A stretch of DNA of 25,932 nucleotides from a virus: IMG/VR virus record IMGVR_UViG_3300025816_000065, positions 1-25,932 of that record, one strand, 5' to 3'. Shown here in pieces: positions 4,205-25,932 of the stretch (the first letter of the stretch is position 1; every line of letters begins with the position of its first letter). Position numbers and translations under genes: made by a program. The notes below the pieces were generated by a model. It was given only the letters and a program-made list of their open reading frames with translations, was not told the DNA's origin and did no database searches.

Positions 4205-4480
4205 TTAATTTAATTGTTCTAAGTATTCTAAAATTTCGTACTCTGTTTCCGGAGAAGGGAATCCTGTAAACCCATTCTCATCAGTTATCATTACAAAAGG
4301 GAGAATCCCGATATCATATCTAAGTTCGTGTAAAACATTTTCTGCTTTTAAATATTCATCATTGTTTTTAACATCTGAAATGTCAACTAATTTATATTCA
4401 AATTTATATCGTTCCATAAAAGAAACAGCATATGCACAATTTTTACAACTCATTTGTGAATTATGAAATATTCTCATCAT
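4205..4480 (-). CDS. Glutaredoxin/thioredoxin-fold protein
   Basis: A 91-aa thioredoxin-fold protein with an N-terminal active-site CKNC (C12-x2-C15) after strand MRIFHNS, then helix, the second strand YKLVDIS, and the cis-proline loop GILPFVMI (P61), ending GFTGFPSPETEYEIL. T4-like phages carry such a glutaredoxin (NrdC) to reduce ribonucleotide reductase; here the reductase is class II and encoded in the same window, so it is a likely client, although other disulfides are possible. Two ATGs occur in tandem; the first, at 4480, overlaps the polymerase TAA by one base and has GAGAGG at good spacing. Length and motifs are those of a complete small glutaredoxin. Confidence 0.85.
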   Translation of the reverse strand: MMRIFHNSQMSCKNCAYAVSFMERYKFEYKLVDISDVKNNDEYLKAENVLHELRYDIGILPFVMITDENGFTGFPSPETEYEILEYLEQLN

Positions 4481-6996
4481 TAAAAGAACCTCTCTAATGT
4501 AAACTTTTTATCTACCGGTTTAGACCAACCCATTGCTTCGTAAAACATCATAATCTTTCGATGTAGATTTTTATCGTACATTTTGTCATAGTCAATGTAA
4601 TCACGAATGTATTGTAGAATTTCTATAGGGTCTTCATAACCTTTGTATGCTAAACTTTCGATACCTAATGGGTTCTTTGTGAGATAGACCCATCTGATTT
4701 TTTCTGCTGAACTTATTAATAAGTATTGTTTAGAAATCTCAAAATGTAATAATAAATCATTATAATTTACAGCAGACTTAACGTGTACAGGAGCTCCTGA
4801 TTTGAACTTACTAAATGTTTGTTTTTTTAATTTACGTTGCGTATACTTCTTCAAACTTTTAATACCTGTAGGCATCGATATATTGTCAATAGGCATTGTA
4901 TTCATAGAAGACTTAAAATTTAAAATTCTGTCATCAATCTTCTCTTTAGGAACGTTAGCAAGAACATCATCAAGAACTTCTTTTAAAAGTTTACCACAAG
5001 CCTTAGGAAAATTTGAACGAACGGTATCAATACCTTTTACCATAACCTTGTTGACATCAACTCCGTTATCATTAATTATCTTCATACCATATCGTTTTTT
5101 AGCAATAAACAATCCTGATATAGCAATAACCTCTTGTTTAATTTCAAACTTATGATTCTTAATATTACAAAACTTCTCACCAAAATAATCATAACTCTTA
5201 TTAAGATATGCTTGTAGCTCTGATGCTATTGTAAGAATACGTTTACTCATCATTGATTTTGAATTAGTATTCTCATTCGGGTATCTATGTTTTACTAATG
5301 GCAACGCAGATGCGAAAATAGAATCAGTATCAATATAAATCACGTGGTCGTCATCAGTTCCTAATTCATTATTGTAGAAGTGATTAGTAATAGTTTTACT
5401 AAACTTGATTAATGATTGACCTGTTAGTGTAGTAGCTTCAGCATTATCAATATCATAGAATCTAAATACTGATAACCCAAGAACACCATATAAACTATTT
5501 AACATAATTTTTTGAATCAACTGCCTTCTATCAAAATATTCATAACGTTCTGTATTACCATCGTTACCAAACTTCTTTGCTAACTTACGATATTCTACTC
5601 TTTCATCAAACCACTTAGAAAGAATAGCGGGAATCAGACCTGTTTTGTCAGTACGATATAATACACCATTTGCTGAAATAGAAATCTTATTATCTGTTAC
5701 GTATGATTTAAAGGCTTCATAACTCATTGATGCTACTTCGTTACCATAGTCATCATTAATTTTATATACCTTTTCTACTTCTCGAATAAAATCTTGTTCA
5801 CTCCATTCTTCGAGTTTACCTAATTTAGTTTCAGGTGATATGTTCAGAGACATAATAACAGAAGGATACATAGATGTAACATCTAAATCAAATACCCAAT
5901 CGTGTTTACCCTTTTGTGGTACTGCTACGTGTGCACCTGCAAACTGAAAGTCTTCTGCTAATTTAGGTTTAGGCTTTTTGTCAGGAGCTACAATCCCAAG
6001 TTTTCTCAAATAAACTAATATAGCACCTTCAAGATATCGTGATGATGTAAACACATTTTCATAAGGAACGTGTCCGGAGTGAGTTAGTGCTTGTGTAATA
6101 CTGATGAAATCTAATTTCTTATTGAGTTTGTCTACGATTGCTACATCTTGTACGTTGTATAAAACAAATTGTGTTCTATCATTATTGTATAAATCATTGA
6201 GTGTACCTTCATACTCAACTTTATTCTCTCCGAGTTCTTCTTCTGCTATAGCATCCAATCGATAACTTGATTTCTCTGTATATGTAAACTTACGATATAA
6301 AAATAAATAATCTAAATGTGATACTCCTGCTATCCTATGTTTACTTTTGAAGTCTGACCATTGTACGATTCCTATAGGACTAAACATAGACGCTACTTTT
6401 TTACCTACTATTTTACAAGCACGATTATATAAATAAGGAACATCGAATTTCTCTGTATTCCATCCTGATATAATAGTCGGATTTATTTCTCTATATCTTG
6501 CGAAGAATCTTTGTAGTAAATCAAACTCTGAATCAAATGTCTCAACATTAAAATTATTTCTAAGTATATCAGGATGATTTAAATCAACTTTGCCTTCAGG
6601 GTCTAATACTAAACAATGGTATGTATCATCTGTACAATCATTAAAACCTATTGATGTTACTTCATTAGGCGCTTCATCAGGACTCGGAAATCCTTCTGTA
6701 ACTTTTACTTCTATATCAAAAAATAAAGTTCTATGTCCTTTTGAAATCTCATCTGAGTCTGCATATCTGTCAACTAATACACGAGTTTCTGCAGGTACAT
6801 CTGATTCAAATAATCCACGTTGTTTAGGGTCGTAGTTATATACCTTTGTTAATTTATCTCCAAATAACGAAGTATAGGTACCCGTAGGTGACTTCTTGTA
6901 GGCATACGGCTTAAACTTGAAAGTCTCGTAACCCTTGACATCATCCCAAAGATGAACTTTTTTAGTTTTTATTTCGAAATAAATATTTTGATACAT
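4480..6996 (-). CDS. 43: Family B replicative DNA polymerase (T4 gp43-like)
   Basis: An 838-aa polymerase with intact proofreading and polymerising sites. Exo I is FFDIEV (D94, E96), Exo II is GWNTEKFD (N180, D185), and Exo III is YNVQD (Y280, D284). Pol motif A is DVTSMYPS (D372 onward), motif B is KIMLNSLYG (496-504), motif C is YIDTDS (D556, D558), and KKRYG lies at 633-637. The C-terminal FTLERFF resembles the clamp-binding peptide that ends T4-type polymerases. T4 gp43 has 898 residues, so this one is slightly compact but complete. It starts by TAATG overlap with the dUTPase and is followed by the glutaredoxin gene by the same overlap, placing nucleotide supply and replication genes in one transcript. 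No intein or intron interrupts it. Confidence 0.97.
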   Translation of the reverse strand: MYQNIYFEIKTKKVHLWDDVKGYETFKFKPYAYKKSPTGTYTSLFGDKLTKVYNYDPKQRGLFESDVPAETRVLVDRYADSDEISKGHRTLFFDIEVKVTEGFPSPDEAPNEVTSIGFNDCTDDTYHCLVLDPEGKVDLNHPDILRNNFNVETFDSEFDLLQRFFARYREINPTIISGWNTEKFDVPYLYNRACKIVGKKVASMFSPIGIVQWSDFKSKHRIAGVSHLDYLFLYRKFTYTEKSSYRLDAIAEEELGENKVEYEGTLNDLYNNDRTQFVLYNVQDVAIVDKLNKKLDFISITQALTHSGHVPYENVFTSSRYLEGAILVYLRKLGIVAPDKKPKPKLAEDFQFAGAHVAVPQKGKHDWVFDLDVTSMYPSVIMSLNISPETKLGKLEEWSEQDFIREVEKVYKINDDYGNEVASMSYEAFKSYVTDNKISISANGVLYRTDKTGLIPAILSKWFDERVEYRKLAKKFGNDGNTERYEYFDRRQLIQKIMLNSLYGVLGLSVFRFYDIDNAEATTLTGQSLIKFSKTITNHFYNNELGTDDDHVIYIDTDSIFASALPLVKHRYPNENTNSKSMMSKRILTIASELQAYLNKSYDYFGEKFCNIKNHKFEIKQEVIAISGLFIAKKRYGMKIINDNGVDVNKVMVKGIDTVRSNFPKACGKLLKEVLDDVLANVPKEKIDDRILNFKSSMNTMPIDNISMPTGIKSLKKYTQRKLKKQTFSKFKSGAPVHVKSAVNYNDLLLHFEISKQYLLISSAEKIRWVYLTKNPLGIESLAYKGYEDPIEILQYIRDYIDYDKMYDKNLHRKIMMFYEAMGWSKPVDKKFTLERFF

Positions 6997-10340: not shown

Positions 10341-10347
10341 AATCATT

Positions 10348-12483: not shown

Positions 12484-13866
12484 TTAATCAAAGCCTTTCA
12501 TATCATTATTGTTAGTTTTATAGTCTTTATATTTCTGACCTAATGATTTTCTTAAAAACTCATCGTGATTATTCATTTTACCTTGTACGTTCTGTCCTTG
12601 CTGTGTCTGTTTGTCGAATATTTGAATGTGTCCTGTATTAGTATTTATAGTTGCGGGAAACGTAATACCATCGACACCAAATCTATTTTTAATTACGTGA
12701 AATCTGCCTGTGTTTGCTATCTTATCTTCTACTTTACGACTCATACTGATAACGAAGTCAGCAGTCATTACTTTACTATAATCTTCAGCTACCTTACTTG
12801 CGTCAATAACATCTTCTTCAAGTGCTGAACGATTTGCTTGAGAAGCAGTCCATATTGGAACTCCAAATTCTCCTGCCATGCCTCTCAAGTCTTCATATAT
12901 GTTACCAAGTTGATGTCGTCTTTCTGTAAAGTTACCTATCGGCTTTAATATATCAGCATAATCTACAATAATCATATCAGGAAGTTTTCCTTGTAATTCC
13001 ATTTGTTTAATATGTGCCGCGAGTGTTTGAACAGAAGCAGTTCTTGTAGGATAATACTTTATTAGTAAGTAACCTTTTATCGCATCTAATTTCTTTTGAA
13101 CATCATCTTGATAAAACTTTAGATTTCCTGTAGGGACTCCTGAAAATATTGTATCGTATCTCAAACCAACATACTCAGCATTTAATTCTAATGTGTAGTG
13201 TGCTACACTCAATCCTGCTCGAACACAATTAGCACCTAATGCTTGAAGAGTCCAAGACTTACCGATACCTGCGGGTGCTACAACAACACCTAACTCTCCG
13301 CCTGCCAATCCACCATCCATAACTTCATCAATAGTATCCCAACCTGTTTTTACCGTATCACGTGCTGATTGATTCAATCTCTCTTCAAGTGAAATTAAAT
13401 ACTCGTGTCCAAGATTTCTATCAGTACCTGCTCTTAAAGCATCATCTATAATTCTTTTTATACTATCATAATCTTTACCTTCAAGTAAATCTACACTCTC
13501 TATAATAGCATTTTTTAATGTTTGATTTTTACAAAATCCAAGTACTTGTTCTTTAACAAATTCTAAATCTGTAGCTTCTATATGTCGCCAAGATTCTTTT
13601 AAACTTTCTACTACTGCTACTTTTAAAACATCGTTACCTATTTCATCTGTTTTAACTTTTAATACTTCAAGTGTAGGGACATTTTTATACTCTATAAAAT
13701 ATGCCATTATAGTCTTTACTAAAAACTTATTTGAATCTGATTCAAAATAGTCAGGATTCATAATATCAGAAATTTGTGCTGTGAATGTATTGTCACTTAA
13801 TAAAGAAGACACTACTTTCGATTGAAACGTAGGGCTATATTGATTTAAGTTTTCTTTATTCGCCAT
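12484..13866 (-). CDS. 41: Replicative DnaB-type helicase (T4 gp41-like)
   Basis: A 460-aa RecA-fold hexameric helicase, close to T4 gp41 (475 aa). The N-terminal half is a helical DnaB-like domain; the linker TGWDTIDEVMDGGLAGGEL (174-192) leads into the motor. Walker A is APAGIGKS (197-204), Walker B is MIIVDYAD (298-305), and the DNA-contacting/sensor motif is TASQANR (340-346). KNRFG further on supplies a candidate arginine finger. It unwinds DNA ahead of the polymerase and would recruit a primase not seen in this window. ATG 13866 has AAGGA six nt upstream, and the gene overlaps the preceding small gene by 11 nt. The C-terminal 40 residues are polar and Asn/Lys rich. Confidence 0.93.
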   Translation of the reverse strand: MANKENLNQYSPTFQSKVVSSLLSDNTFTAQISDIMNPDYFESDSNKFLVKTIMAYFIEYKNVPTLEVLKVKTDEIGNDVLKVAVVESLKESWRHIEATDLEFVKEQVLGFCKNQTLKNAIIESVDLLEGKDYDSIKRIIDDALRAGTDRNLGHEYLISLEERLNQSARDTVKTGWDTIDEVMDGGLAGGELGVVVAPAGIGKSWTLQALGANCVRAGLSVAHYTLELNAEYVGLRYDTIFSGVPTGNLKFYQDDVQKKLDAIKGYLLIKYYPTRTASVQTLAAHIKQMELQGKLPDMIIVDYADILKPIGNFTERRHQLGNIYEDLRGMAGEFGVPIWTASQANRSALEEDVIDASKVAEDYSKVMTADFVISMSRKVEDKIANTGRFHVIKNRFGVDGITFPATINTNTGHIQIFDKQTQQGQNVQGKMNNHDEFLRKSLGQKYKDYKTNNNDMKGFD

Positions 13867-14023
13867 AAAGTTCCTTTTTTAATTTTTGATTTTTTTTACT
13901 TTGATATCGTTGTCTTGCTTTATCCAAAACTCTATGCCTATTTTTTAAATAATAGTTTTGAGACCACTTTAATTGAGCGGCTCTTCGTTCTTCGTCTGTT
14001 TTATATTTTATTTTTCTACCCAT
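13856..14023 (-). CDS. Small 55-aa basic protein
   Basis: ATG 14023-14021 to TAA 13858-13856, in the gap between exonuclease and helicase. The product begins MGRKIKYKTDEERRAAQ and continues with KWSQNYYLKNRHRVLDK; about a third of residues are Lys or Arg. The pattern, a K/R-x-Y-T/H-x-EE-R helix followed by YY-x-K/R-N, is common in short virus proteins and at the start of some HNH or DNA-binding proteins, so nucleic-acid binding is plausible. It overlaps the exonuclease by 8 nt and the helicase by 11 nt, filling the space exactly, which strongly supports it as a gene. Ribosome binding site is weak (GAG), consistent with coupling. Confidence 0.65.
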   Translation of the reverse strand: MGRKIKYKTDEERRAAQLKWSQNYYLKNRHRVLDKARQRYQSKKNQKLKKELYGE

Positions 14024-15020
14024 TTCTCGTAAGAATATCTAATGAAGCCCAACTTTCACGTAACCACACTTCTAAGTTTTTTATCTCATTAGAAAATCCG
14101 TCTTCAATATACATTTGTCGAAATTTATAACTATTTAAGTGATGTGGCCGATTGTCAACAAAATCAAGAATTTTTTGTTTCGCACTGCCACTTATAATTA
14201 TCTCTCTCAAATCCATTAATTCAAAATTTCTTTTTAAAATGTCTAAATTATCTGATAACCTGTTATCTCTACTAACCAATTCTTTTAATGAAACAGGTTC
14301 AGTAGCCATTTCAGGACATATCTTCATTAACGTTTTCAATCCGATGCCTCGTACACCTGGAATATTATCAGATTTATCACCATCAACCATTCTGTACATC
14401 AAGAAGTTTTCAGGATGTATATCATACTCTTCCATTAAAGTTTCAGTAGTGTACAACTTCTTCTTTGAAGGGCTATAAACATTTATTCTGTCATCTACTA
14501 ATTGTAGAAAGTCTTTGTCTGTAGACATTATAGTACAACGGCTGAAATTTCCTTTGTTTGCTACGTATGAAATTACATCATCTGCCTCCATATTGTCAAG
14601 AGAAAAAGTTTGTACAGGTAAACATTCTAAGTACTCCATCAATCTTGACATCTGTTGTATCATAGATTGTCTTTCACCGCCATCTTTAGTAAACTCTACT
14701 TTACGATTTAGTTTAGATTTAAAAGCACGGTTTGCTTTGTATTCAGGGTAGAGTTTTCTTCGTTTCTGTGAACCACCTTTACCATCGAAGACTATTAGGA
14801 TTCTTGTAGGTTGTATAAGTCGTATTACATAACTCAACGACCTCAAGAATCCTATCATCCCCCCTACGTGATAACCATTGTCACTCATCATAGGAATAGC
14901 ACTAAAGCATCTGATAAAGTTATTTAGACCATCTATTACTAACACATGGTCATTTAACTCTGTTGGTTTTGACGGGTTATTTTTTATTTCGTCAAACAGA
15001 CTTAGGTATCGTTTTTTCAT
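14016..15020 (-). CDS. 5'-3' exonuclease (FEN / T4 RNase H-like)
   Basis: A 334-aa FEN-family nuclease with the metal-binding acidic residues in order: D30 (LVIDGLNN), D79 (IVFDGKGGSQKRRKLYPEYK), E145/D147/D148 (MEADDVIS), D168/D170 (STDKDFLQL), and D215/D218 in the helix-hairpin-helix GDKSDNIPGVRGIGLKT. The basic arch helix follows the second motif. It resembles T4 RNase H and the N-terminal domain of Pol I, which remove RNA primers and flaps during lagging-strand maturation. ATG 15020 has AAGGA six nt upstream although it overlaps the epimerase gene by 29 nt, so this start is kept. The C-terminal 100 residues are less conserved. All catalytic residues appear present. Confidence 0.93.
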   Translation of the reverse strand: MKKRYLSLFDEIKNNPSKPTELNDHVLVIDGLNNFIRCFSAIPMMSDNGYHVGGMIGFLRSLSYVIRLIQPTRILIVFDGKGGSQKRRKLYPEYKANRAFKSKLNRKVEFTKDGGERQSMIQQMSRLMEYLECLPVQTFSLDNMEADDVISYVANKGNFSRCTIMSTDKDFLQLVDDRINVYSPSKKKLYTTETLMEEYDIHPENFLMYRMVDGDKSDNIPGVRGIGLKTLMKICPEMATEPVSLKELVSRDNRLSDNLDILKRNFELMDLREIIISGSAKQKILDFVDNRPHHLNSYKFRQMYIEDGFSNEIKNLEVWLRESWASLDILTRNG

Positions 15021-15918
15021 CGTATTCCTTTACTTTTTGTGCTATGTAATCTTCAAGTGAATGTTCAGGTATCCATCCTAAAAGTTTGTGTGCATTAATG
15101 TCTTCACATAATGTAACATCCATTTCTCCGGGTCTTGGTCCTATATTTACACTATCAGATTTGTACAATTTAACAAGTTCATTTATGCTGTAGTTTTTAC
15201 CTGTTCCTAATTCAAAGTACTCTGCTCTCAAATCACTACGTCCTTGACAAGCAATCAAAGCACTACATATATCTAATACGTGAGTAAAGTCTCTTCTTTG
15301 TTCACCATTGTTTGTAACCGTTAAAGGCTTGCCGAGTTCTTTCAATTCATCGAATACTGCAACAACCGTAGCATATGCACTACCTGAAGGAATCATATAA
15401 TCACCATATACATTATAAAATCTTGTTATAATAGTAGGCAAATCATACACTTTAGAATATAACTCACACAACAACTCACCATTGTACTTATAAAAAGTAT
15501 ATGGATTAGCAAAGTGGTCACCATGAGTAGAACTTGAGCCAGCATAAACAACAGGTATATTGCCTCTCATCCTAGCCCATTCTAATATATTTTGTGTACC
15601 GATTGTGTTAGATGAAAATGTATTCATCGGTTCATCAAATGAAGGCTGTATTCTCGCTAATGCCGCAAGATGATATATTATGTCAGGCGTACCTTCTGAG
15701 TCATCCCCTAATACAATATCATCTATACGTTGTTGAAAGAAATAGTCTGCAACATCAAACTCGTGATATATAACTCTGTCGCTATCGATTCTATTATGAT
15801 GATAACCTGTTGAAAAGTTATCTAATACTTGAATATACGCTTCAGGTTGTTCTTTGAGTATCTTACTAATTAAATTAGTACCTATAAAACCAGCACCGCC
15901 TGTAATCAATATCTTCAT
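14992..15918 (-). CDS. NAD-dependent epimerase/dehydratase (extended SDR)
   Basis: A 308-aa extended short-chain dehydrogenase/reductase resembling UDP-sugar 4-epimerases. The Rossmann motif is ITGGAGFIGTNL (5-16), the adenosine-binding strand is VLDNFSTG (31-38), HLAALA is at 83-88, the catalytic Ser/Thr lies in AGSSSTHGD (126-134), and the Y140-x3-K144 pair is in NPYTFYKYNGE. RFYNVYG and RRDFTHV are also typical. These enzymes epimerise or dehydrate nucleotide sugars; in a phage the product may go to host surface polysaccharide or modified-base glycosylation. No glycosyltransferase is visible nearby. It is linked to uvsX by TAATG and overlaps the exonuclease, so it is a stable part of the replication operon rather than a recent loose insertion. 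Exact sugar unknown. Confidence 0.92.
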   Translation of the reverse strand: MKILITGGAGFIGTNLISKILKEQPEAYIQVLDNFSTGYHHNRIDSDRVIYHEFDVADYFFQQRIDDIVLGDDSEGTPDIIYHLAALARIQPSFDEPMNTFSSNTIGTQNILEWARMRGNIPVVYAGSSSTHGDHFANPYTFYKYNGELLCELYSKVYDLPTIITRFYNVYGDYMIPSGSAYATVVAVFDELKELGKPLTVTNNGEQRRDFTHVLDICSALIACQGRSDLRAEYFELGTGKNYSINELVKLYKSDSVNIGPRPGEMDVTLCEDINAHKLLGWIPEHSLEDYIAQKVKEYDEKTIPKSV

Positions 15919-17021
15919 TATAACTCGTCCGCAGGTTCATCAGTTTCTACAACATCATCCAATCCAAGAGCTGAAGTATCATATTTAAGAATCAAGACAC
16001 TACAAATTTTTTCATACAACACATCTGCTAAGCCATCGTGTTTTTCAAGAATAGACTCAAAATCTTTTGATTGAAATTTGATATCTTCACCTTCGTGTTC
16101 TATAGTATACCAAGCGCCTGTTTGTTTAAGAAGTTTATATTCTTTCATAACTTGTAACCAAGATGATTTATCATCTATACCTCTATCGAAGTATAAAGGA
16201 AAGTCTGCGCGTCTCAAAGGCGGGCCTAATCTATTCTTGATAACTTGTGATGTTATAGTCATTCCGATTGTATTCTTTTTTGTATCTTTAATCTGACCTT
16301 TGTTCTTCAATCTAATACGAGTTGAAGCGTGAAAAGGCAATGCTTTACCGCCTGATGTTGTATAAGGGTCACCAAACATAACACCAAGTTTTTGTCTTAA
16401 CTGATTAGTAAATACAAGTGCTACACGTTGTCTACCTATCATTTGAGTAATTTTACGAAGTGCTTTAGATATGATGATTGCTTTGTGTGTAGCATATCCA
16501 TCTTTATCAAAATCAGCTTCCATTTCAAATTTAGTAGATGCCGCAGCTACTGAATCAACTAATATTGTTACTAATCTATTCTTATCACTTTCACGAACTT
16601 TAGTCACAATCTCTTCAATAGCTTCAAATATGTCTTCTACCGTTTCAAGATGAAGATATAACATTTTACTACTATCTACACCGATAACTTGTAAAAAGTC
16701 TTCACTAACTGCTGTTTCAGTATCTATATAAACTGCTACACCATCTTTCTTTTGAGTTTCTGCAAGTATATGTGCACCGAGTAATGATTTACCACTTGAC
16801 TCTAAACCATTAATTTCTGTAATCCTTCCAACAGCTATACCACCATTTGGTCTATTAGATATTGCTAAATCTAATATACTCGAACCTGTAGATAAAAATT
16901 CTCTAATATCTGTGGGTGTTGTATCACTACCATCAAGAAAGTAAGCTACTTTTTGATTGCTAAATTTTTTGTTTAGGGTGTCGGCCAAAAGACCCTCTAA
17001 CCCGTCTTTAGTATTAGACAT
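15918..17021 (-). CDS. uvsX: RecA-family recombinase (UvsX role)
   Basis: A 367-aa strand-exchange ATPase. Walker A is GLESSGKS (72-79), the catalytic glutamate is E102 in YIDTETA, Walker B is VTILVDSVAA (151-160), and the L2/signature region is VFTNQLRQKLGVMFGDPY followed by TTSGGKAL. The sequence around Walker A and L2 is closer to bacterial RecA than to classical T4 UvsX. The C-terminus is acidic (DDVVETDEPADEL), as in RecA proteins. It would promote homologous pairing for repair and recombination-dependent replication. AGGAG lies 8 nt before ATG 17021. It is downstream of the gp32-like SSB gene and coupled to the epimerase. Confidence 0.93.
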   Translation of the reverse strand: MSNTKDGLEGLLADTLNKKFSNQKVAYFLDGSDTTPTDIREFLSTGSSILDLAISNRPNGGIAVGRITEINGLESSGKSLLGAHILAETQKKDGVAVYIDTETAVSEDFLQVIGVDSSKMLYLHLETVEDIFEAIEEIVTKVRESDKNRLVTILVDSVAAASTKFEMEADFDKDGYATHKAIIISKALRKITQMIGRQRVALVFTNQLRQKLGVMFGDPYTTSGGKALPFHASTRIRLKNKGQIKDTKKNTIGMTITSQVIKNRLGPPLRRADFPLYFDRGIDDKSSWLQVMKEYKLLKQTGAWYTIEHEGEDIKFQSKDFESILEKHDGLADVLYEKICSVLILKYDTSALGLDDVVETDEPADEL

Positions 17022-17083: not shown

Positions 17084-17836
17084 TTACTTATTGAAGAGTT
17101 GGTCGAACGCTTCTGAAGTGTCTTTAACCGTTTTCTTGGAAAGAACTTCAGTTGTCACCGAATCGCCTTTATCATTACCCTCTTCTTCAGATGGAGTCAA
17201 CCAAGTATTAAGAACTTCAGTAAGTTCTTCATAGGTCTTCTCTTGATACATTTCTTGAATGTTTGGTTGTTCATTCAACATTTTATCAAGCATCTTATCA
17301 TCTTCTGTGATTGGATTTTGATTAGGCTTGACCCTTATGTTAGTAACAGGAAAGTTCTTTCCTGCTTCTTCAGCAGAAATAAATTCTACCGTTACATCAC
17401 GACCATTCATTGAATCTGTGATGTCACCATAATCAGGGTCTGCTATTACAGATAGAAGCTCTTGATAAACCATTTTACCAAAGCCCCAAAATCGAACACC
17501 TTCGCTTTCTTCACCACGAACTATTACAGGTGCAAATGTTCTCATTTTAGCCATGAGTTTCTTTGCTATCTGATAATCATCTTTGTTACCACTTGAACGA
17601 AGTTTTTGTGCAAACTCTTCGATTGGGTCAGGACGACCAAATGTTATCGGAGACAAATAAGTCTTGCCACCTAAATCATAATGAAAGAAAAGTTCCTGAA
17701 AAGGATTCTCTTTATTGTGTTGATAAGGCACGATTCGGACTACTTGTTTTCCTGGTTGTGGTTTCCAAAGATTATTGGTTTTCGTGTTAGAAGTTTGAAG
17801 TTGCTCTAACCTTTTGCGTATTGCTGTAATATCCAT
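17084..17836 (-). CDS. 32: Single-stranded DNA-binding protein (T4 gp32-like)
   Basis: A 250-aa SSB resembling gp32 of marine T4-like phages. After a short basic N-terminus (the cooperativity region) come LWKPQPGKQVVRIVPY, NPFQELFFHYDLGG, VIVRGEESEGVRFWGFGK and ADPDYGDITD, which form the OB-fold core. The tail from about residue 210 is acidic and ends DTSEAFDQLFNK, fitting a protein-interaction tail. T4 gp32 is 301 aa and binds zinc through His/Cys residues; this protein has no cysteine at all, so it cannot carry that site. AGGAG lies 8 nt upstream of the ATG. The 98-nt AU-rich leader suggests autogenous translational control, as known for T4 gene 32. Next downstream is uvsX. Confidence 0.92.
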   Translation of the reverse strand: MDITAIRKRLEQLQTSNTKTNNLWKPQPGKQVVRIVPYQHNKENPFQELFFHYDLGGKTYLSPITFGRPDPIEEFAQKLRSSGNKDDYQIAKKLMAKMRTFAPVIVRGEESEGVRFWGFGKMVYQELLSVIADPDYGDITDSMNGRDVTVEFISAEEAGKNFPVTNIRVKPNQNPITEDDKMLDKMLNEQPNIQEMYQEKTYEELTEVLNTWLTPSEEEGNDKGDSVTTEVLSKKTVKDTSEAFDQLFNK

Positions 17837-17934: not shown

Positions 17935-18327
17935 TTATAAATCAATAATTTCTTTTAATCGTGTATCTATTTTGTTTAAGCCTTGTTTATTTGTCAATAA
18001 AATACAATTACGATAGTTGTTCCATTGTAATCTATACGATGTGTCTAAGATACCGTTGTTAGCATTCCTAATTATAATGTTAACTGCATTGATTGTGTAT
18101 AGTGTATTTGTTTCTTTCTTTCGATGTAATAATATTGTGTTAGGGAGAAATCCCGATACTTCTGATTTTAACACATTATAGGTCAACATTAACTCATTAG
18201 AGTTTTCTGTTCTTTCTAAAACATAAAGTTTTTTCATAGAAAGTGGTGCAGACTCTTTGATGAGTAAGACCATTTCAGTAAGTTCTTTCTTGTTAGAGAA
18301 AGTACAAAGTAGTTGTGAATCTATCAT
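17935..18327 (-). CDS. Conserved phage protein of unknown function
   Basis: A 130-aa protein. The stretch PNTILLHRKKETNTLYTINA, then NNGILD and LQWNNYRNCILLT, is a pattern I associate with short conserved proteins of marine T4-like phages, but I know no assigned function. There are no transmembrane segments, signal peptide or catalytic motif. It is mixed alpha/beta with a basic middle (HRKK) that could contact nucleic acid. It starts by TAATG overlap with the 773-aa gene upstream and is followed by the 98-nt gap before the gp32-like gene, so it ends the upstream transcript. Gene reality is secure; function is not. Confidence 0.75.
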   Translation of the reverse strand: MIDSQLLCTFSNKKELTEMVLLIKESAPLSMKKLYVLERTENSNELMLTYNVLKSEVSGFLPNTILLHRKKETNTLYTINAVNIIIRNANNGILDTSYRLQWNNYRNCILLTNKQGLNKIDTRLKEIIDL

Positions 18328-20648
18328 TATCTAACTTTTTTTCCTGTCTGCGCGTCTAAAGCTACGATTGCTGATGGATTAGTGTTTTCAGGACTTATCT
18401 TTTTCTTTGGTGGCGATGCGATACTAAATCCTTGGTCACAACTAAAATCCATTCCTGAAATAGTATTTATACCATCTGCTTCTACGGTTTTATATTTACC
18501 TTTTTTAATAACTTCGTCTGTGTCTGAATCTTTTTTAAATCCTGATATCTTGTGTGCAACATTATTAAACTTATTGTATTCTGTATCACGATTATTTATT
18601 CCTGCCATTACTTTTCCGTGCGCACAATGTTTCATAAAAGTTTCTTTAACTCTTCTCAAATCATCTTCAGTAAACCCTGCTTTCATAAGTTTTCCTTTAT
18701 TCCCCGCTTTTTTCATAAATGCCGAAAAAGCTTTCTCGCCTGTTTCTAATCCTGCGTTGTAAATCTTATCATATTCTTCTTCTGTCATAATACCATCATT
18801 TACAACTTGTGCTTTAGTTGCATCTCTTACATCATCTAACTCTTTTATAACTTCATCACTTGGTGGATAATCATCTCCATTGTAAACTTTATCATATGTA
18901 TCAAGTAAATCATTTATAGTTTTTCGTGTGCTTTTATTCTTATAAACGGTTAACGATACTTTACCAGCAGAAGAAGACCTAGCTCCTGCATCATACTTTA
19001 CACTTTCACCGCCTGATACTTCAATACTAACTAATACTTGTTGTATTGATTCTGCTAATTTTTCAGGGTCTTTTGTATCGCCTGGGTCTTTTATAGCATA
19101 AACATCAGTTACTTTAAAAGTTTCAGATGATGGTAAAATAGCAGTAAATCCTTGTGATAATCTGTGCATATAAGTTATAGCTTCTGCTACTTCAGCACGT
19201 GAAGTCATCATATCACCTAATGCATTCATCTCTACTAATATTTGCCCCATATCTTCATTAAATTTATTTGCTCTTTCTTGTTGTTCTTCAAATGATAGAT
19301 TATCCCATTCAGGGTCTTCTAATGGGTTTTTTACATTTCTAATTAATTCTGCTAACTCATAATGGCTTCTTGATAATGGTGGATGAGGAGGCGTAGTACT
19401 TTCTAATTTTTCTTCTAATGTATTTGCTAAGTCTTGTAAACATTGATTAATTGCAGTCTTTTTACCTTCAGTAGTACTTGTATCACCATAATCAACTACT
19501 TCTAATTTACCTTTACTTGCCTCAGCTGTCTCTGCTAATAAATCTATTTGGTCATTATATCTTTGTATACCTAATACTGCTTTTCTTGCTTTTCTCTTCG
19601 CTTCACCAGCGTCCATACCTTTTTCTATCAAAGCTTTTTCTACATCACTTATTCTTGGTACAGATTTTTTCGTATGTGTTTGACCTGCAATAGTTGCACT
19701 TACAACTTTACCTTTCTTTTTGTCTATCTTAATTTTTTCTTCTTTTCTCTTTTTATTTATTGCTGTAGGAGCCATCATCTTTGAAGTGGTTCTTGAATTA
19801 GTTGGTGATGCCATTTTTAGTCCAACTGCATCTGCTAATTTTACTATTTCATCATATGGTGCTTTACCTTTTCCACCTGTCATTGTTGCTTTTTTTCTTG
19901 CTTGTCTTGCAGGTTCTCCGCCACCTACACTTTTGTTACCGAATCTCCAATCATTTGGACTTATGTCTGCTATGTAAAATTCAGCACTTCGTTTCTCTTC
20001 ATCAGGCTGTCCTTTTTGGTCTTTTACTGCTACCCATCTTCTCAATGAATTTATCTCATCGTCTGTCATTGTTTCTACTTTTTCTTCTTTAATCTTTTGA
20101 ATAGCAGAACTTATATTTTTCTTATCTTCATCAGGAATAACGTTTGATTCTTGAACTCCTGCATTAACATTATCAAGTCCATGGTGTACTTTTAAGACTT
20201 CTACTTTTTCACCTTTAGGTCCTACTTTTCCTGTAATGTCTTTATCTAAATTAGGATTTTTAGGTTCTCCTGTAGGTTTACCAAATTCATCTAAACCTTT
20301 CTCCGCATATTTTTCTTTTTGTTTTTCTACTTTAACATCAATATCATCTTTTGGCTTTTCTGATGTTTCTTCATCATCCTCGTCTTCTTTTTCTTTAGCA
20401 TCTAATGCTTTTTGTGATTTAGGGTGGTCTTTAATATATTGTGCTTGTTGTTCAGGAGACAATTTTGTCCACCACTCATCGTCTTCTCTAATAAATCTTT
20501 CAGATAATTCTATAACATCAGAGTGTGAAAATCCTATAGATAAGAGATAATCGTATAATGCTTCTCTATCTTCTTTTATAGTGAAGTCAGGATAGCCTTT
20601 ATCATACATCCAAGATATATTGGTAAGCAGTTTATCAAATGAGTTCAT
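18327..20648 (-). CDS. Large hydrophilic phage protein of unknown function
   Basis: A 773-aa, highly charged protein with no transmembrane segment or signal peptide. Residues 1-60 look folded and helical (MNSFDKLLTNISWMYDKG). Residues 60-150 are an acidic/lysine-rich linker (KEKEDEDDEETSEKPKDD). The middle contains basic patches (GEPARQARKKA, INKKRKEEKIKIDKKKGK). The C-terminal third looks globular again (FMKKAGNKGKLMKAGFTEDD, MKHCAHGKVMAGIN, GMDFSCDQGFSI). It may be a virion or internal/injected protein because it sits next to structural genes, but no family function is known to me. GAGG lies 11 nt before ATG 20648; the gene overlaps the polymerase-like gene by 14 nt and joins the 130-aa gene by TAATG. 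Confidence 0.8.
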   Translation of the reverse strand: MNSFDKLLTNISWMYDKGYPDFTIKEDREALYDYLLSIGFSHSDVIELSERFIREDDEWWTKLSPEQQAQYIKDHPKSQKALDAKEKEDEDDEETSEKPKDDIDVKVEKQKEKYAEKGLDEFGKPTGEPKNPNLDKDITGKVGPKGEKVEVLKVHHGLDNVNAGVQESNVIPDEDKKNISSAIQKIKEEKVETMTDDEINSLRRWVAVKDQKGQPDEEKRSAEFYIADISPNDWRFGNKSVGGGEPARQARKKATMTGGKGKAPYDEIVKLADAVGLKMASPTNSRTTSKMMAPTAINKKRKEEKIKIDKKKGKVVSATIAGQTHTKKSVPRISDVEKALIEKGMDAGEAKRKARKAVLGIQRYNDQIDLLAETAEASKGKLEVVDYGDTSTTEGKKTAINQCLQDLANTLEEKLESTTPPHPPLSRSHYELAELIRNVKNPLEDPEWDNLSFEEQQERANKFNEDMGQILVEMNALGDMMTSRAEVAEAITYMHRLSQGFTAILPSSETFKVTDVYAIKDPGDTKDPEKLAESIQQVLVSIEVSGGESVKYDAGARSSSAGKVSLTVYKNKSTRKTINDLLDTYDKVYNGDDYPPSDEVIKELDDVRDATKAQVVNDGIMTEEEYDKIYNAGLETGEKAFSAFMKKAGNKGKLMKAGFTEDDLRRVKETFMKHCAHGKVMAGINNRDTEYNKFNNVAHKISGFKKDSDTDEVIKKGKYKTVEADGINTISGMDFSCDQGFSIASPPKKKISPENTNPSAIVALDAQTGKKVR

Positions 20649-21906
20649 CGTAGTTTTTACCTCGTTTCATCTTGACAGGGAATCCATCTTGTTGTAACTC
20701 TTTTTGAACAATTTCAACAAATTTATCTCCATCGTTTTTATTGTAGTCAAACAAAAAACTATCATAATGATATAATACTAACGTACTTTTAAAGTCTTTT
20801 GTTTTTTTTAACAAACTCTTTAATACTAATATGTTTCTCTCTGTTTCTAAACTTTGTATCATATAATTAAAAAGTTTTGAAGGATAAAAGTCCTTTACAT
20901 CTAATGTTATTCTTCTTTTATAAATATCAGTTACTAAAACTTTATCTCTCTTAAAACGTGACCACAGATTAGTGTAATATTTCTTAACCTTACCGAAAAA
21001 TTCGTGTGTTTTTGCTATATCATCAGGTACACCACCATATAAATACTTAAAAGTCATCGTCTTTGACTCTTCGTAAGATACGTTATATAGTTTACTAAAA
21101 TGTTCGTGTACACTCTCAGCACCAAAATCATATCCTATAATCTTACCAATCAATCTTACGTGATAAGCATCAAAGTCAAATTCAATTAATTCATCATATC
21201 TACTTTCTATCATCTTACGTGAACCATCACTTTTATTCATAGCCGCAAAGTTTAAACCATCATAAGTATTACTCGGTCTACCTGTAGGAGTCAACACATT
21301 ATAATTAGTAAACATCAAATGGTCTTTCGAAACATTATCTGATTGTCCAGCTGGTACTCTTAGTGGATTGACACATAATCCAACTCGTTCTACATCTGCA
21401 AATACTTTATTAGCATCTGAATAAAACTCATTATATTCATCACCTATATTTTCTTTATAGTTTGTGAACAAATCTTGACAATACTCTAAATGTTTCATTA
21501 AAGGAATAACAAAATTATTCATCCCTTTAGAATGAAAATATCTATGTGAAGTAGTCAGGAATATATGATTATCAACTAAATTTCCTTGTTTCTGAAACTC
21601 TGCTTGTTGTAAATCAATAACGTTACTAAAATTAGCAAAGTGGCAAACTGCTTTTATATCTGCTACGTATTTAGGAACATCAGTATCTAAATGTAATAAA
21701 CAATCTAAAGTTAGTTCAGGAGCTTCATCGTGATTGAATGATAGCATATATTCGTTATCGTTAGATAACCGTACGTATAGCATCAACGGATAATCGTTTA
21801 ATGGATGTTTGTTTTTACTTCCTATGAAATGTAAGAACACCCAATCAGAAGAACGATATTCATCCACAAAGTCCTCAAATTGGTTGTACTTTTCTATTAT
21901 AACCAC
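20635..21906 (-). CDS. Divergent family A DNA polymerase-like protein
   Basis: A 423-aa protein aligning with the palm/fingers of Pol I. TPTGRPSNTYDGLNFAAMN (206-224) matches the T-x-TGR-x-SS...NLQN block. EFDFDAYHVR (242-251) matches motif A, with D244 at the catalytic Asp and H249 where Pol I has the steric-gate Glu. SKTMTFKYLYGG (281-292) matches the O-helix with K282, F286 and Y290. NYMIQSLETERN (347-358) matches the N-x-x-x-QG block. YHYDSFLFD (379-387) replaces motif C HDE, keeping D382 but with Ser for Glu. The first 200 residues show no clear DEDD exonuclease. The ORF opens with GTG 21906 and no Shine-Dalgarno; an in-frame GTG at 21867 with GAGGA 4 nt upstream is an alternative. It lies beside virion genes rather than in the replication operon. 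It could be a specialised polymerase or a DNA-binding relic. Confidence 0.78.
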   Translation of the reverse strand: MVIIEKYNQFEDFVDEYRSSDWVFLHFIGSKNKHPLNDYPLMLYVRLSNDNEYMLSFNHDEAPELTLDCLLHLDTDVPKYVADIKAVCHFANFSNVIDLQQAEFQKQGNLVDNHIFLTTSHRYFHSKGMNNFVIPLMKHLEYCQDLFTNYKENIGDEYNEFYSDANKVFADVERVGLCVNPLRVPAGQSDNVSKDHLMFTNYNVLTPTGRPSNTYDGLNFAAMNKSDGSRKMIESRYDELIEFDFDAYHVRLIGKIIGYDFGAESVHEHFSKLYNVSYEESKTMTFKYLYGGVPDDIAKTHEFFGKVKKYYTNLWSRFKRDKVLVTDIYKRRITLDVKDFYPSKLFNYMIQSLETERNILVLKSLLKKTKDFKSTLVLYHYDSFLFDYNKNDGDKFVEIVQKELQQDGFPVKMKRGKNYDELI

Positions 21907-21911
21907 GTCTT

Positions 21912-21940
21912 AATATATAACTTTTTATTGATAATGTCAA
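21912..21940 (-). promoter_or_regulatory. Strong sigma70-type promoter upstream of the family A polymerase-like gene
   Basis: TTGACA (21940-21935), 17-nt spacer, TATATT (21917-21912) on the minus strand: perfect -35, 5 of 6 at -10 and optimal spacing, in a 43-nt intergenic gap. The expected start of transcription falls on or next to GTG 21906, so the mRNA would be leaderless or nearly so. Confidence 0.75.
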
Positions 21941-21949
21941 GTATTATTT

Positions 21950-22738
21950 TTAATAACTTACGTTTCCGCCTGCTCCTCCTGTCATTACACCTGCCGGCGG
22001 TCCTGATAATGCGCTACCTGTTTTTTTAAGTTTCTTTGGAACTATTTCATTGTTTTTTTCTTGTAGAGGTATACTCTGTGTAGGTGCAGGAACAACTATG
22101 TTTCCTTTTGCATCTCTTGGTATTTTTTCAATACCTAATGATTTACGTTGTTTTGAAAGTTCACTTGCTGTTGGTATAATGTAGTATTCTATATAATTAG
22201 ATAACATTCTATCAAGACCAGGATGTTTAAAATTTTCATCAAAAACCGTTCTTCTATTTTGAGTGAACACATCTTTAGCTTTCCCTGTTAATCTCCATTC
22301 AATACTAAATTTTTCATATAACGGAGAATCAAAATCTTCATCTACTTCTTTAAGACCTTCACTTGGGTCATTTCTTCTAATAACAAAATATCGTGTAAAT
22401 GAACCATTAACGTAATCATTAGATTCCGGCCCTTCTTTTATAAAAACATCTGCCATTGGTTCATATGTTTTTCCAAAGTTATTAGTGTAAGCAGAGAAAT
22501 TACTTTCGTCTACAGGATTCAAAGGTTTAATTATTCGAGATGTAGGTCCGTGACTTTCACCCGTCATATAATATTCTTCAAAGTCAAATGTATAATGTAT
22601 ATGATAAGAAGTTCCTTTTTTAACTAAAGTACCATTAGAAACATATATAAAAGATGTGTTGTCAGGTACGCTTCCTGCATTAGGAACTGCTCTCATAGTG
22701 TTATCTTGAATTTGTCGTATTTTATCATAATCTATCAT
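21950..22738 (-). CDS. Probable virion structural protein
   Basis: A 262-aa protein. Segments such as GTSYHIHYTFDFEEYYMTG, PMADVFIKEGPESNDYVNG and FTRYFVIRRNDP are a pattern I associate with conserved tail/baseplate-region proteins of marine myophages. Residues 1-200 look beta-rich and folded; the last 60 are Pro/Lys/Gly-rich and end GGAGGNVSY. No transmembrane segment or enzyme motif is seen. It starts by TAATG overlap with the giant hub-like gene upstream and ends 43 nt before the next gene, where a promoter begins a new transcript. Structural role is inferred from neighbours and composition; exact part unknown. Confidence 0.6.
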   Translation of the reverse strand: MIDYDKIRQIQDNTMRAVPNAGSVPDNTSFIYVSNGTLVKKGTSYHIHYTFDFEEYYMTGESHGPTSRIIKPLNPVDESNFSAYTNNFGKTYEPMADVFIKEGPESNDYVNGSFTRYFVIRRNDPSEGLKEVDEDFDSPLYEKFSIEWRLTGKAKDVFTQNRRTVFDENFKHPGLDRMLSNYIEYYIIPTASELSKQRKSLGIEKIPRDAKGNIVVPAPTQSIPLQEKNNEIVPKKLKKTGSALSGPPAGVMTGGAGGNVSY

Positions 22739-25700
22739 TATAATCTCGATTGATATGTTCTAACATCTGAAGGACCATTTGGACCTGTTAGTCTCTTTAA
22801 ATAATTATAACTACCATCTTCTTTTATTTCTGATTCAGCTGCCCTACATCGTGACTTTTGACTTTTTTCTTTAGACGCACCCGGCTCTCTTGCTTCTATC
22901 ATTGAATCCCAAAATTTTCTTCGTTCACTAAATGGTACAGGGTCTTCGCCTCCACTTTCTCTTCCTGTTCCATACATTACTTGGTTTTTAAAATAAGTTC
23001 CTCGTTGCGTTACGTTTAATCTGTCTGTAGTAGTTATTGCGGCTTCAGCTTTACCTAATACAGCACCAAGTGTTTTCCATTTAGGAACTAATCTATATAT
23101 TAAATTATTTTGCCACTCATCCCCACCAAAATAACTTGAAGGAGGTGTTGCTGGCTTCTTTTTCTTTGTTCTCTTTGGTTTTCCTGAAGGAGGGTCTTGA
23201 CCTGGACTTGGCTGTGCATTAGGGTCTCGCATCAACGCAGGATTCATAGGTGCTGGTCTTCCTCTTTTTATTTTAATATTTTTTCTGTCGTTTTTCTTTT
23301 TGTCTTTTAAAACCGTTAATTTTGTTCTTTCAGGTTGATTTAATATAGCATTAATAATGTCATTTGTAAAATCATTATCTTGTCCTGTTGTGTTATTAGG
23401 GTCATTACCTACTTGTGCTTGTAGAGTCTTTCTCATCTCCTGTATCTTATCACCTATCATCATACCATCTTCTGTTTTTCTATTTGCTATATAACAATAA
23501 GTTGTTTCTCTTTTATCCCATTCACCAAAGTTCGAATTATCATCACCTGCAACAGAATCAGAATACTCTAATCTTGTGTATAATCTATCAAGTAAATCTT
23601 TTGGGTCTTTGCCGAATGATTGAAAATAAGTTTTTCTTATATTATTAAACTCTTCTATACTCAAAACATCTGTAACACCTAAAGAGAATATTATAGGGTG
23701 TGAGTTTTCACGACCTTTAGGATATAATTTAACATCTTGTTGTGGCGCGTCTTTAAATGGTTGTATGTTCGCTTTCCCATCTGTCATCTGTAATATTATA
23801 TTAGCAGTTTCATTCTCTACCATAGCATATGGAATAAAGGGCGGCGGAGGGGGCGGTACTTCCCAATCTTCAAACGAATCAAAATCTAATTCTTCTAATT
23901 CTACATCATCAGCTATATCTTCTTCATCTGATGGAACAGGAATAGACGGTCTTGGTACGGGTGGTATAGGAGGCGGTTTAGGCATATCTGAAAAATCTTC
24001 AAACTCTAACGGTTCTAAAGGCAAATCATCTGCGATATCTTCTTCATCTGAAGGAACAGGTATGTTAGGATACGGCACATTAGGTAATGGGTCTCCCACA
24101 GGTGTAGGAGCTGGTTTTGGTTTAGGTTTAGGTGTTGGATTAGATATTATTTTTTTAATGTTTTCTTTTTTCTTTTTAAATATTTTTTTAGTTTTAGACT
24201 TCTTTTTAGGTTGTGGCATAGACTTAGTTTTTCTTCTCATCAATCCTGTAATAGAAGTTTCCCACCCGTCAGAAGTTAATTCTTGTTCTATATTTTTAAC
24301 AATAAAAAAGAAGTTGTCACTAATTCCATCAGGTAAATAACTAACCGTAAAAGCTTGTCCTGGCAGTATACCACTTATTCCATCTATCTTGAAAGATAAC
24401 TCAAAATAACTTATTGTATTATTTAATTTTTCTAAAGAATTTACATTATCAAGATAAATTACGTGGTCTATATAGTTTTGGTAATCAGAATGTGTACTGA
24501 TTGATACATAAGGAACTTTTCTACTACCGGCGTCTACATTCTTTACAATAGTACTATGAGTCAAACTAAATTGGTTAAGAGTTATCCCACCTGCATTACC
24601 GCCTTTTACGTCTATACCTGTTATCATAGCTGTACCGGTGTCAGGGTTACTCGTATACTTTCCTGATAGTGAAAATAAGCCGTCCATTTGGTCCGACATT
24701 TTTGCGAGTCCTTTATTTAAATCAGGATACATATCACGAGCTTTTTTATCTTCCGCATCAGGTGTAGAATCGTGTTCATTAGTAGGTGGTCGATTTTGTA
24801 ATACATATGTTGGAGCGATACCAGCAAATGATGGAGAATACTTTTCTCTTGTAACTCTTAAAAAGTTTAAAGGAGCATCAGATATAACTTCTTCTGATGG
24901 GAGAGCTCCACGTGAACCATTTTCGACAATAACATTTATGTCTGTTACACTGCTTATATTAAAAGCAGGAGCGTCTTCTTCAGGGTCATAATCGGGTCTC
25001 GCAATACTTGAAGGCGGTGCTTCATTATTTTGGGTTAATGGGTAAACAATACGCCCAAATGATGAAGCATATACCGGATTATAAAGATTAGCAGTTGGTC
25101 TGTCTTTAATATTTAAATCTTGCAACAACTCAGCTTTTAGGCCTGAATTAAGTCCGCCTAACACATCAGTTAAATCAAAGTTTGTGCTAGCTCCTATAGT
25201 AGCGGCCAATTCTACGTTCTTAGGAATTTTACTATTTAATTCTAAAGACTTTACAATAGAGTTTTTTGAATATACATCAAATATGAAATGTTCTTGTTTA
25301 TTAGAATTTCGTAAATCATAAACACTTAAAAATCCAGGTAAGTGTACATTTGCGCCTACTTCAAAGTTTGGAAAGTTGTGAAAGTTAGAAGATATTCTAT
25401 TATAAAGATTCATCAAGCCTTCTCGTAGACTTCCTACACACGACATTTTGTCAAAAAATACGTTTCTATCTTGAAAATATGTTATATCATCTTTAAAAAA
25501 TATATCATTATCTTTACCTAAAATTTCTGTGATTTCTCCTGAACTATCTCGTTTCAACGTAGGAAAAAAGTTTCTATCACAAAAAGCTCTGTTATTAGTT
25601 CCTAAAAAAGAGTCTTGTACTACGTTTATATTAACATACATATTTCGTAGTTTTGCTTGAACGTGATTTGGGTTTGTTGCTTTAGCATCTTTTGATTCAT

Positions 25701-25932
25701 CAGAAGTTACTACAGGATTAGTTATTATAAAACCACGACCTTTGGCTAAAATTTTTCCTAATGCTTCAGAATACGATTTCATCATCGGAATTTGTTCTTT
25801 ATCATTAGATTGATGTATTCCTAATTGTGTACGACCAAGAAGTGCTTTCATAGCTTCTGTATTTATTAAACAATCAGTAAAACTTTTTGGTACCAATTGT
25901 CTGTGTGTTAACATTAAATTACTTTCTAACAT
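22738..25932 (-). CDS. Large baseplate-hub-like structural protein, 5' end at window edge
   Basis: At least 1064 aa. An ATG coincides with the last three bases of the window, so the true start may be there or further upstream. Residues about 510-566 (FELSFKIDGISGILPGQAF, then FFFIVKNIEQELTSDGWETS) resemble the tail-hub domain of phage gp27/gpD-type proteins, in which a pG-x-x-F strand is followed by an I-x-x-V-x-H-x-i...GW-x-T block. Residues about 570-615 are Lys- then Pro-rich; 624-676 hold a duplicated acidic motif; PPPPPP follows. The C-terminal region has more Lys/Pro-rich linkers and ends in a compact segment (YLKRLTGPNGPSDVRTYQSRL). It is much longer than T4 gp27 (391 aa), suggesting extra domains or fusion. 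Hub role is moderately supported. Confidence 0.6.
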   Translation of the reverse strand: MLESNLMLTHRQLVPKSFTDCLINTEAMKALLGRTQLGIHQSNDKEQIPMMKSYSEALGKILAKGRGFIITNPVVTSDESKDAKATNPNHVQAKLRNMYVNINVVQDSFLGTNNRAFCDRNFFPTLKRDSSGEITEILGKDNDIFFKDDITYFQDRNVFFDKMSCVGSLREGLMNLYNRISSNFHNFPNFEVGANVHLPGFLSVYDLRNSNKQEHFIFDVYSKNSIVKSLELNSKIPKNVELAATIGASTNFDLTDVLGGLNSGLKAELLQDLNIKDRPTANLYNPVYASSFGRIVYPLTQNNEAPPSSIARPDYDPEEDAPAFNISSVTDINVIVENGSRGALPSEEVISDAPLNFLRVTREKYSPSFAGIAPTYVLQNRPPTNEHDSTPDAEDKKARDMYPDLNKGLAKMSDQMDGLFSLSGKYTSNPDTGTAMITGIDVKGGNAGGITLNQFSLTHSTIVKNVDAGSRKVPYVSISTHSDYQNYIDHVIYLDNVNSLEKLNNTISYFELSFKIDGISGILPGQAFTVSYLPDGISDNFFFIVKNIEQELTSDGWETSITGLMRRKTKSMPQPKKKSKTKKIFKKKKENIKKIISNPTPKPKPKPAPTPVGDPLPNVPYPNIPVPSDEEDIADDLPLEPLEFEDFSDMPKPPPIPPVPRPSIPVPSDEEDIADDVELEELDFDSFEDWEVPPPPPPFIPYAMVENETANIILQMTDGKANIQPFKDAPQQDVKLYPKGRENSHPIIFSLGVTDVLSIEEFNNIRKTYFQSFGKDPKDLLDRLYTRLEYSDSVAGDDNSNFGEWDKRETTYCYIANRKTEDGMMIGDKIQEMRKTLQAQVGNDPNNTTGQDNDFTNDIINAILNQPERTKLTVLKDKKKNDRKNIKIKRGRPAPMNPALMRDPNAQPSPGQDPPSGKPKRTKKKKPATPPSSYFGGDEWQNNLIYRLVPKWKTLGAVLGKAEAAITTTDRLNVTQRGTYFKNQVMYGTGRESGGEDPVPFSERRKFWDSMIEAREPGASKEKSQKSRCRAAESEIKEDGSYNYLKRLTGPNGPSDVRTYQSRL
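23905..24063 (-). repeat. Direct repeat coding an acidic 13-residue motif in the hub-like protein
   Basis: The 13-residue IPVPSDEEDIADD is encoded at 24063-24025 (residues 624-636) and again at 23943-23905 (664-676), exactly 120 nt apart, each followed by an acidic/aromatic LEFEDFSDM- or LDFDSFEDW-type segment and flanked by prolines. Codons differ between copies at synonymous positions, so the peptide, not just the DNA, has been kept. Confidence 0.9.

Follow-up and report, generated by a model that had tools for sequence, protein, structure and literature searches.

With regard to DNA polymerases encoded beside a phage's regular replicase, the best described relatives of the protein studied here are those named divPolA1 by Yutin et al. 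(2024, Virol J 21:200; PMC11348598), with the protein of Flavobacterium phage immuto as the type. According to the text of that article, divPolA1 was found in 14 phages, its palm residues are conserved, its thumb is truncated and its exonuclease is inactivated by replacement of the three catalytic aspartates, while the genes lie among conserved replication genes and the phages encode a regular DNA polymerase at another place. A further group treated in the same text, divPolA2 of Rheinheimera barbaviruses, likewise is a second, thumb-less and exonuclease-less divergent PolA next to PolB, but is described there as having an unrelated N-terminal domain, variable gene surroundings and structural matches that include RNA polymerases. 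Our literature search for functional studies of divPolA1 returned the original paper and a preprint only, neither of which reports an assay of any member.

The window analyzed here comprises 25,932 nucleotides (IMG/VR record IMGVR_UViG_3300025816_000065, positions 1 to 25,932) and contains a marine phage gene whose small product is related to bacterial DNA polymerase I (Table 1). The interval 20635-21906, for which an earlier sequence-only reading had given no strand, is a single long open reading frame on the minus strand with a GTG start at 21906 and a stop at 20635; the start codon is plausible because homologues begin at the same place. Comparison with five close relatives yielded dN/dS values of about 0.09-0.12, and the gene is thus under strong purifying selection. 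The encoded protein matches immuto divPolA1 in tblastn (1e-49, 33% identity, residues 29-418, 92% of the length) and belongs to divPolA1, a family already described in 2024. It shares with the immuto protein a Klenow-like palm and fingers with the catalytic residues, a truncated thumb, an exonuclease domain, a regular polymerase beside it and replication genes downstream; on the other hand, it sits in another phage lineage, one with PolB. Relative to the text of PMC11348598, the present analysis adds many more members, two fixed active-site exchanges evaluated with a control set, purifying selection, a constant Pol I-type 5' nuclease neighbour and a promoter-like element at the start site. Neither this element nor His at the Glu710 position or Tyr at the Arg754 position appears in that text, the alignment in its Fig. 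5 aside.

Table 1. Position of divPolA1, its motifs and domains, and neighbouring genes within the window.
Feature	Coordinates	Strand	Basis and remarks
Promoter-like TTGACA-N17-TATATT	21912..21940	(-)	11/12 consensus positions; ends 5 nt before GTG
divPolA1 gene, compact family A DNA polymerase, 423 aa	20635..21906	(-)	ORF, PF00476 matches of relatives, fold, identity to immuto, dN/dS
Probably degenerate 3'-5' exonuclease-like domain, residues 1-165	21412..21906	(-)	Model aligns from residue 1 to Pol I large fragment from residue 301 on
Thumb remnant, residues 176-205	21292..21381	(-)	Spacing between motifs; one 6-residue helix in model
Motif A, EFDFDAYH, residues 242-249	21160..21183	(-)	Catalytic D244; H249 at steric-gate position (E710 of E. 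coli)
Motif B / O-helix, residues 278-291	21034..21075	(-)	K282, F286, Y290, G291 kept; Y278 in place of R754
QG-block equivalent, N347-Q351	20854..20868	(-)	N845 and Q849 of E. coli; mapping by hhalign
Motif C, YHYDSF, residues 379-384	20755..20772	(-)	Catalytic D382; tip of beta-hairpin, E375-380/E383-388 in model
Gene Y, 773 aa, candidate divPolA1 partner	18327..20648	(-)	Overlaps divPolA1 end by 14 bp
Gene Z, conserved, 130 aa, between gene Y and SSB	17935..18327	(-)	Resembles gene just downstream of immuto divPolA1
gp32-type single-strand DNA-binding protein (SSB)	17084..17836	(-)	phrog_1192, 7.2e-20
RecA/UvsX recombinase	15918..17021	(-)	PF00154, 1.8e-56
NAD-dependent sugar epimerase, inserted between RecA and 5' nuclease	14992-15918	(-)	PF01370, 5.3e-35
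5'-3' exonuclease, type fused to bacterial Pol I	14016..15020	(-)	PF02739, 1.3e-33
DnaB-type replicative helicase	12484..13866	(-)	PF03796, 4.2e-16
Family B DNA polymerase, presumed main replicase	4480..6996	(-)	PF00136, 9.7e-37; exonuclease domain PF03104, 8.5e-22

Relationship to family A DNA polymerases

The homology of the window protein to family A polymerases is evident from intermediate sequences and from the fold and not from its own score against PF00476 (Pfam DNA_pol_A), which amounts to 14.2 bits and stays below the curated cut-off of 34.3. Among 39 aligned family members, 21 match this profile (best 1.8e-12), and members in three other genomes, immuto included, pass the cut-off with 40.8, 38.7 and 43.9 bits. 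A PHROGs search assigned the window protein to no family, a single-sequence search of the PDB gave chance matches only, and single-sequence comparisons with immuto gp71 and T7 DNA polymerase were uninformative.

A profile-profile search and a structure prediction had been named as checks in the sequence-only reading, and both point to Pol I. In hhalign, residues 195-416 of the 39-member family align with residues 652-919 of E. coli Pol I (probability 93, E 3.4e-7) such that the motifs coincide: D244 corresponds to D705, H249 to E710, K282 to K758, F286 to F762, Y290 to Y766, D382 to D882 and S383 to E883. The AlphaFold2 model of the 423-residue protein (pLDDT 90.5) exhibits the Pol I palm fold; its top PDB matches in Foldseek are Pol I large fragments (E about 1e-16), and with Bacillus (Bst) Pol I, 402 of 423 residues align at 3.7 A with a Z score of 28.0. 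As judged from alignments and model, the window protein is a genuine family A polymerase.

Active-site residues, exonuclease-like domain and thumb

All motif residues listed in the sequence-only reading (D244, K282/F286/Y290, Q351, H249 and Y379-H-Y-D-S383) are present in the open reading frame, and the hhalign correspondence with E. coli Pol I shows that this is no coincidence. Their conservation was assessed among 97 non-redundant relatives with less than 90% identity to one another, 96 of which cover the C-terminal sites. D244, R210 (R668 in E. coli), K282, F286, Y290 and G291 occur in 97/97 and D382, N347 (N845) and Q351 (Q849) in all 96 covering sequences, while H267 (H734) differs in one relative only. 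Free variation of D244 and D382 among homologues had been named as grounds for abandoning the idea of a second, specialised family A polymerase; both are fixed and, together with the palm fold, uphold it. The overall fold and the equivalents of D705, H734, K758, F762, Y766, N845, Q849 and D882 are shared with the large fragments of E. coli and Bacillus Pol I (Klenow, Bst), from which divPolA1 differs by the exchanges E710 to H, R754 to Y, H881 to Y and E883 to S (E. coli numbering).

These exchanges do not carry equal weight. E710 is the steric gate of Pol I (PMC13228545), and the His reported at this position, H249, is present in 97/97 relatives. Y278 occupies the Arg754 position in 96/97. 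As a control, canonical phage PolAs (n = 79; relatives of immuto gp71 plus T7 and HTVC033P) were compared by alignment, and all 79 carry E at 710 as well as R at 754. R754 of Pol I binds the triphosphate, and Arg754 and Glu710 handle triphosphate and sugar; their invariant replacement by Tyr and His suggests altered sugar or triphosphate handling in divPolA1.

Motif C had received the main emphasis in the sequence-only reading, which regarded Ser instead of Glu as degenerate. Within YHYDS, D382 is fixed as stated above, but residue 383 alternates between S (84 of 96 relatives) and A (12), and canonical control PolAs also do without Glu: the E883 position is occupied by Q in 77 and by S in HTVC033P. 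When motif C was read directly, the canonical PolA of HTVC033P showed HDS instead of HDE and immuto gp71 showed HDQ; phage PolAs thus tolerate more variation here than the usual HDE consensus implies. The Ser can therefore be taken neither as a sign of inactivation, given Ser or Gln in canonical phage PolAs, nor as a sign of RNA polymerase ancestry. T7 RNA polymerase shares 'DSF' in the form HDSF but lacks the TxTGR and EFDFDAYH signatures, and a profile similarity to it was not found (hhalign probability 0.1). Since control PolAs carry Q or S, the motif C Ser is unremarkable and the emphasis moves to the Glu710 and Arg754 positions. By sequence comparison, the real departures from Pol I are His at Glu710, Tyr at Arg754, a thumb that is largely gone and proofreading acids that appear to be lost.

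In the structural alignment of the model, the N-terminal 165 residues superpose on the Pol I proofreading domain. The columns at or near D355/E357 and D424 are mostly hydrophobic or non-acidic in the relatives, with low alignment confidence in this part, where hhalign gave no reliable alignment; the first two exonuclease sites read as non-acidic at the likeliest columns and the third is unplaced. The spacing from E..G to T.TGRPSN is about 20-55 residues in the divPolA1 family vs. about 120 in E. coli Pol I, and the model has no thumb helices in this region apart from the short one listed in Table 1. Compared with the Pol I large fragment, some 65-100 thumb residues are gone, the proofreading acids appear to be missing and the 5' nuclease is a separate gene.

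Gene neighbourhood and promoter-like element

In the direction of transcription, divPolA1 is followed by gene Y, gene Z, SSB, RecA, the sugar epimerase, the 5' nuclease and DnaB. Gene Z and its immuto counterpart share the stretch NTILLHRKKETNTLYTINA / NTILVHRKKESNTLYTINS (compared by eye). A gene Y relative lies directly downstream of divPolA1 in 123 of 149 loci, as judged by single-linkage phmmer clustering, which may overstate homology. Where relatives have enough flanking sequence, the same strand carries SSB in 39/39, RecA in 35/35, the 5' nuclease in 29/29 and DnaB in 23/25 cases downstream; these loci are not independent samples, many contigs being near-duplicates. The complete family B polymerase noted earlier is confirmed in the window, and a separate PolB occurs in 19 of 25 relatives' records, immuto having a full-length PolA instead; in the relatives without PolB, PolC was not found as the main polymerase, the records being fragments. 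A Toprim primase (Toprim_2 match) is present in five larger relatives' records and DnaG is annotated in immuto, so that there is no primase gap for divPolA1 to fill and a role as primase replacement was discarded.

The genes upstream (21950-25932) match no Pfam family. They are presumed to encode tail or baseplate proteins, since the corresponding place in immuto and Mel-JY01 is taken by large genes of the virion region. The earlier statement that divPolA1 lies with virion genes thus describes one flank, while the other is a replication and recombination cluster.

The replication region also contains a complete 911-aa TonB-dependent receptor gene with Plug and CarboxypepD_reg domains (7611-10346, minus strand); among the records of 16 relatives, 5 contain this gene at 70-100% identity, and it is hence regarded as a stable phage gene and not as an assembly error. 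A ClpP-like protease is encoded at 1273-1851 on the minus strand (PF00574, 2.1e-31). A cellular origin was dismissed, as genome_contigs gave one match only, on a contig of 4.1 kb that was assigned to an archaeal metagenome-assembled genome and is probably a stray phage contig.

The TTGACA-N17-TATATT element ahead of divPolA1 is the sole exact match in the window. Hexamers and spacing are identical in 12 of 12 readable close-relative loci, some of which are only 85-91% nucleotide-identical in the divPolA1 gene, and several more distant clades have weaker boxes at a similar place ahead of the gene. The strong promoter of its own that the sequence-only reading had ascribed to divPolA1 is thus borne out as a present and conserved sequence, but promoter-like sites in the region are not in excess over shuffles (24 vs. 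27.8). Transcripts from the element, if it is used, would begin approximately with the start codon and might thus be leaderless.

Possible functions of divPolA1

We consider it probable that the divPolA1 member is an active family A DNA polymerase of compact build and without proofreading, which serves as an accessory to the replicase encoded by the phage itself. Conservation and model strongly suggest catalytic competence, and nucleotides would be added by the ordinary two-metal reaction. The proposed substrates are short gaps, e.g., after RNA primer removal, or repair and recombination intermediates; the exact role, be it gap filling, lesion bypass or recombination, is proposed from the gene neighbourhood, where divPolA1 and the free-standing 5' nuclease would form a split counterpart of Pol I. 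In view of the missing thumb, distributive synthesis or dependence on a partner protein is to be expected, with SSB and the gene Y product as candidates. Two observations speak against an active polymerase: Arg754 and Glu710 are replaced throughout the family, and a thumb-less polymerase may bind primer-template poorly. Together with the apparently lost proofreading site and the regular polymerase in most relatives' records, the same features would fit a pseudo-enzyme, i.e., a non-catalytic primer-template-binding scaffold or replisome loading factor. We regard this as unlikely, as both catalytic Asp residues and K282, F286, Y290, H267, R210, N347 and Q351 hardly vary although overall identity is 33-40%, whereas the exonuclease acids appear to have been freely lost in the same protein.

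The exchanged residues could also mean that divPolA1 uses ribonucleotides and makes or extends RNA (primers, short transcripts), its His gate and YDS motif C being shifted toward rNTPs. The uniform replacement of Glu710 and the 'DSF' shared with T7 RNA polymerase would agree with such an activity, and an RNA polymerase role was raised for divPolA2 in the text of PMC11348598. It nevertheless appears improbable, since the profile match to T7 RNA polymerase is lacking, HTVC033P has HDS in a canonical DNA polymerase as well, and TxTGR is a motif of the kind seen in DNA polymerases. A related proposal, that divPolA1 constitutes a distinct polymerase class whose His gate and Tyr-for-Arg754 allow ribonucleotides or unusual nucleotides in phage replication, with SSB or the product of gene Y bound to it, is likewise doubtful. 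Two suggestions of the sequence-only reading lack backing. The small size and the absence of thumb and proofreading would agree with a template-independent terminal transferase, but no specific feature of such enzymes was seen and the template-side motifs, TxTGR and the QG block, are conserved, which renders this very improbable. Just as remote is a structural DNA-binding protein of the virion: the presumed tail/baseplate genes upstream and a conserved gene unit that straddles virion and replication genes would be in line with it, but the constant neighbours are replication genes, the catalytic site is strictly conserved and, in close relatives, the conserved promoter-like element separates divPolA1 from the upstream genes.

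Returning to divPolA1 as a compact DNA polymerase, the two fixed exchanges, His for the steric-gate Glu and Tyr for Arg754, give clear biochemical predictions, and a thumb-less polymerase, if working, would be informative on how family A enzymes hold DNA. With regard to distribution, a single scan of IMG/VR detected 386 relatives of the protein, and in a profile scan the contig stretches coding for such relatives numbered at least 579; set against the 14 phages reported previously, these numbers indicate that aquatic T4-like phages commonly carry divPolA1 as their second polymerase.
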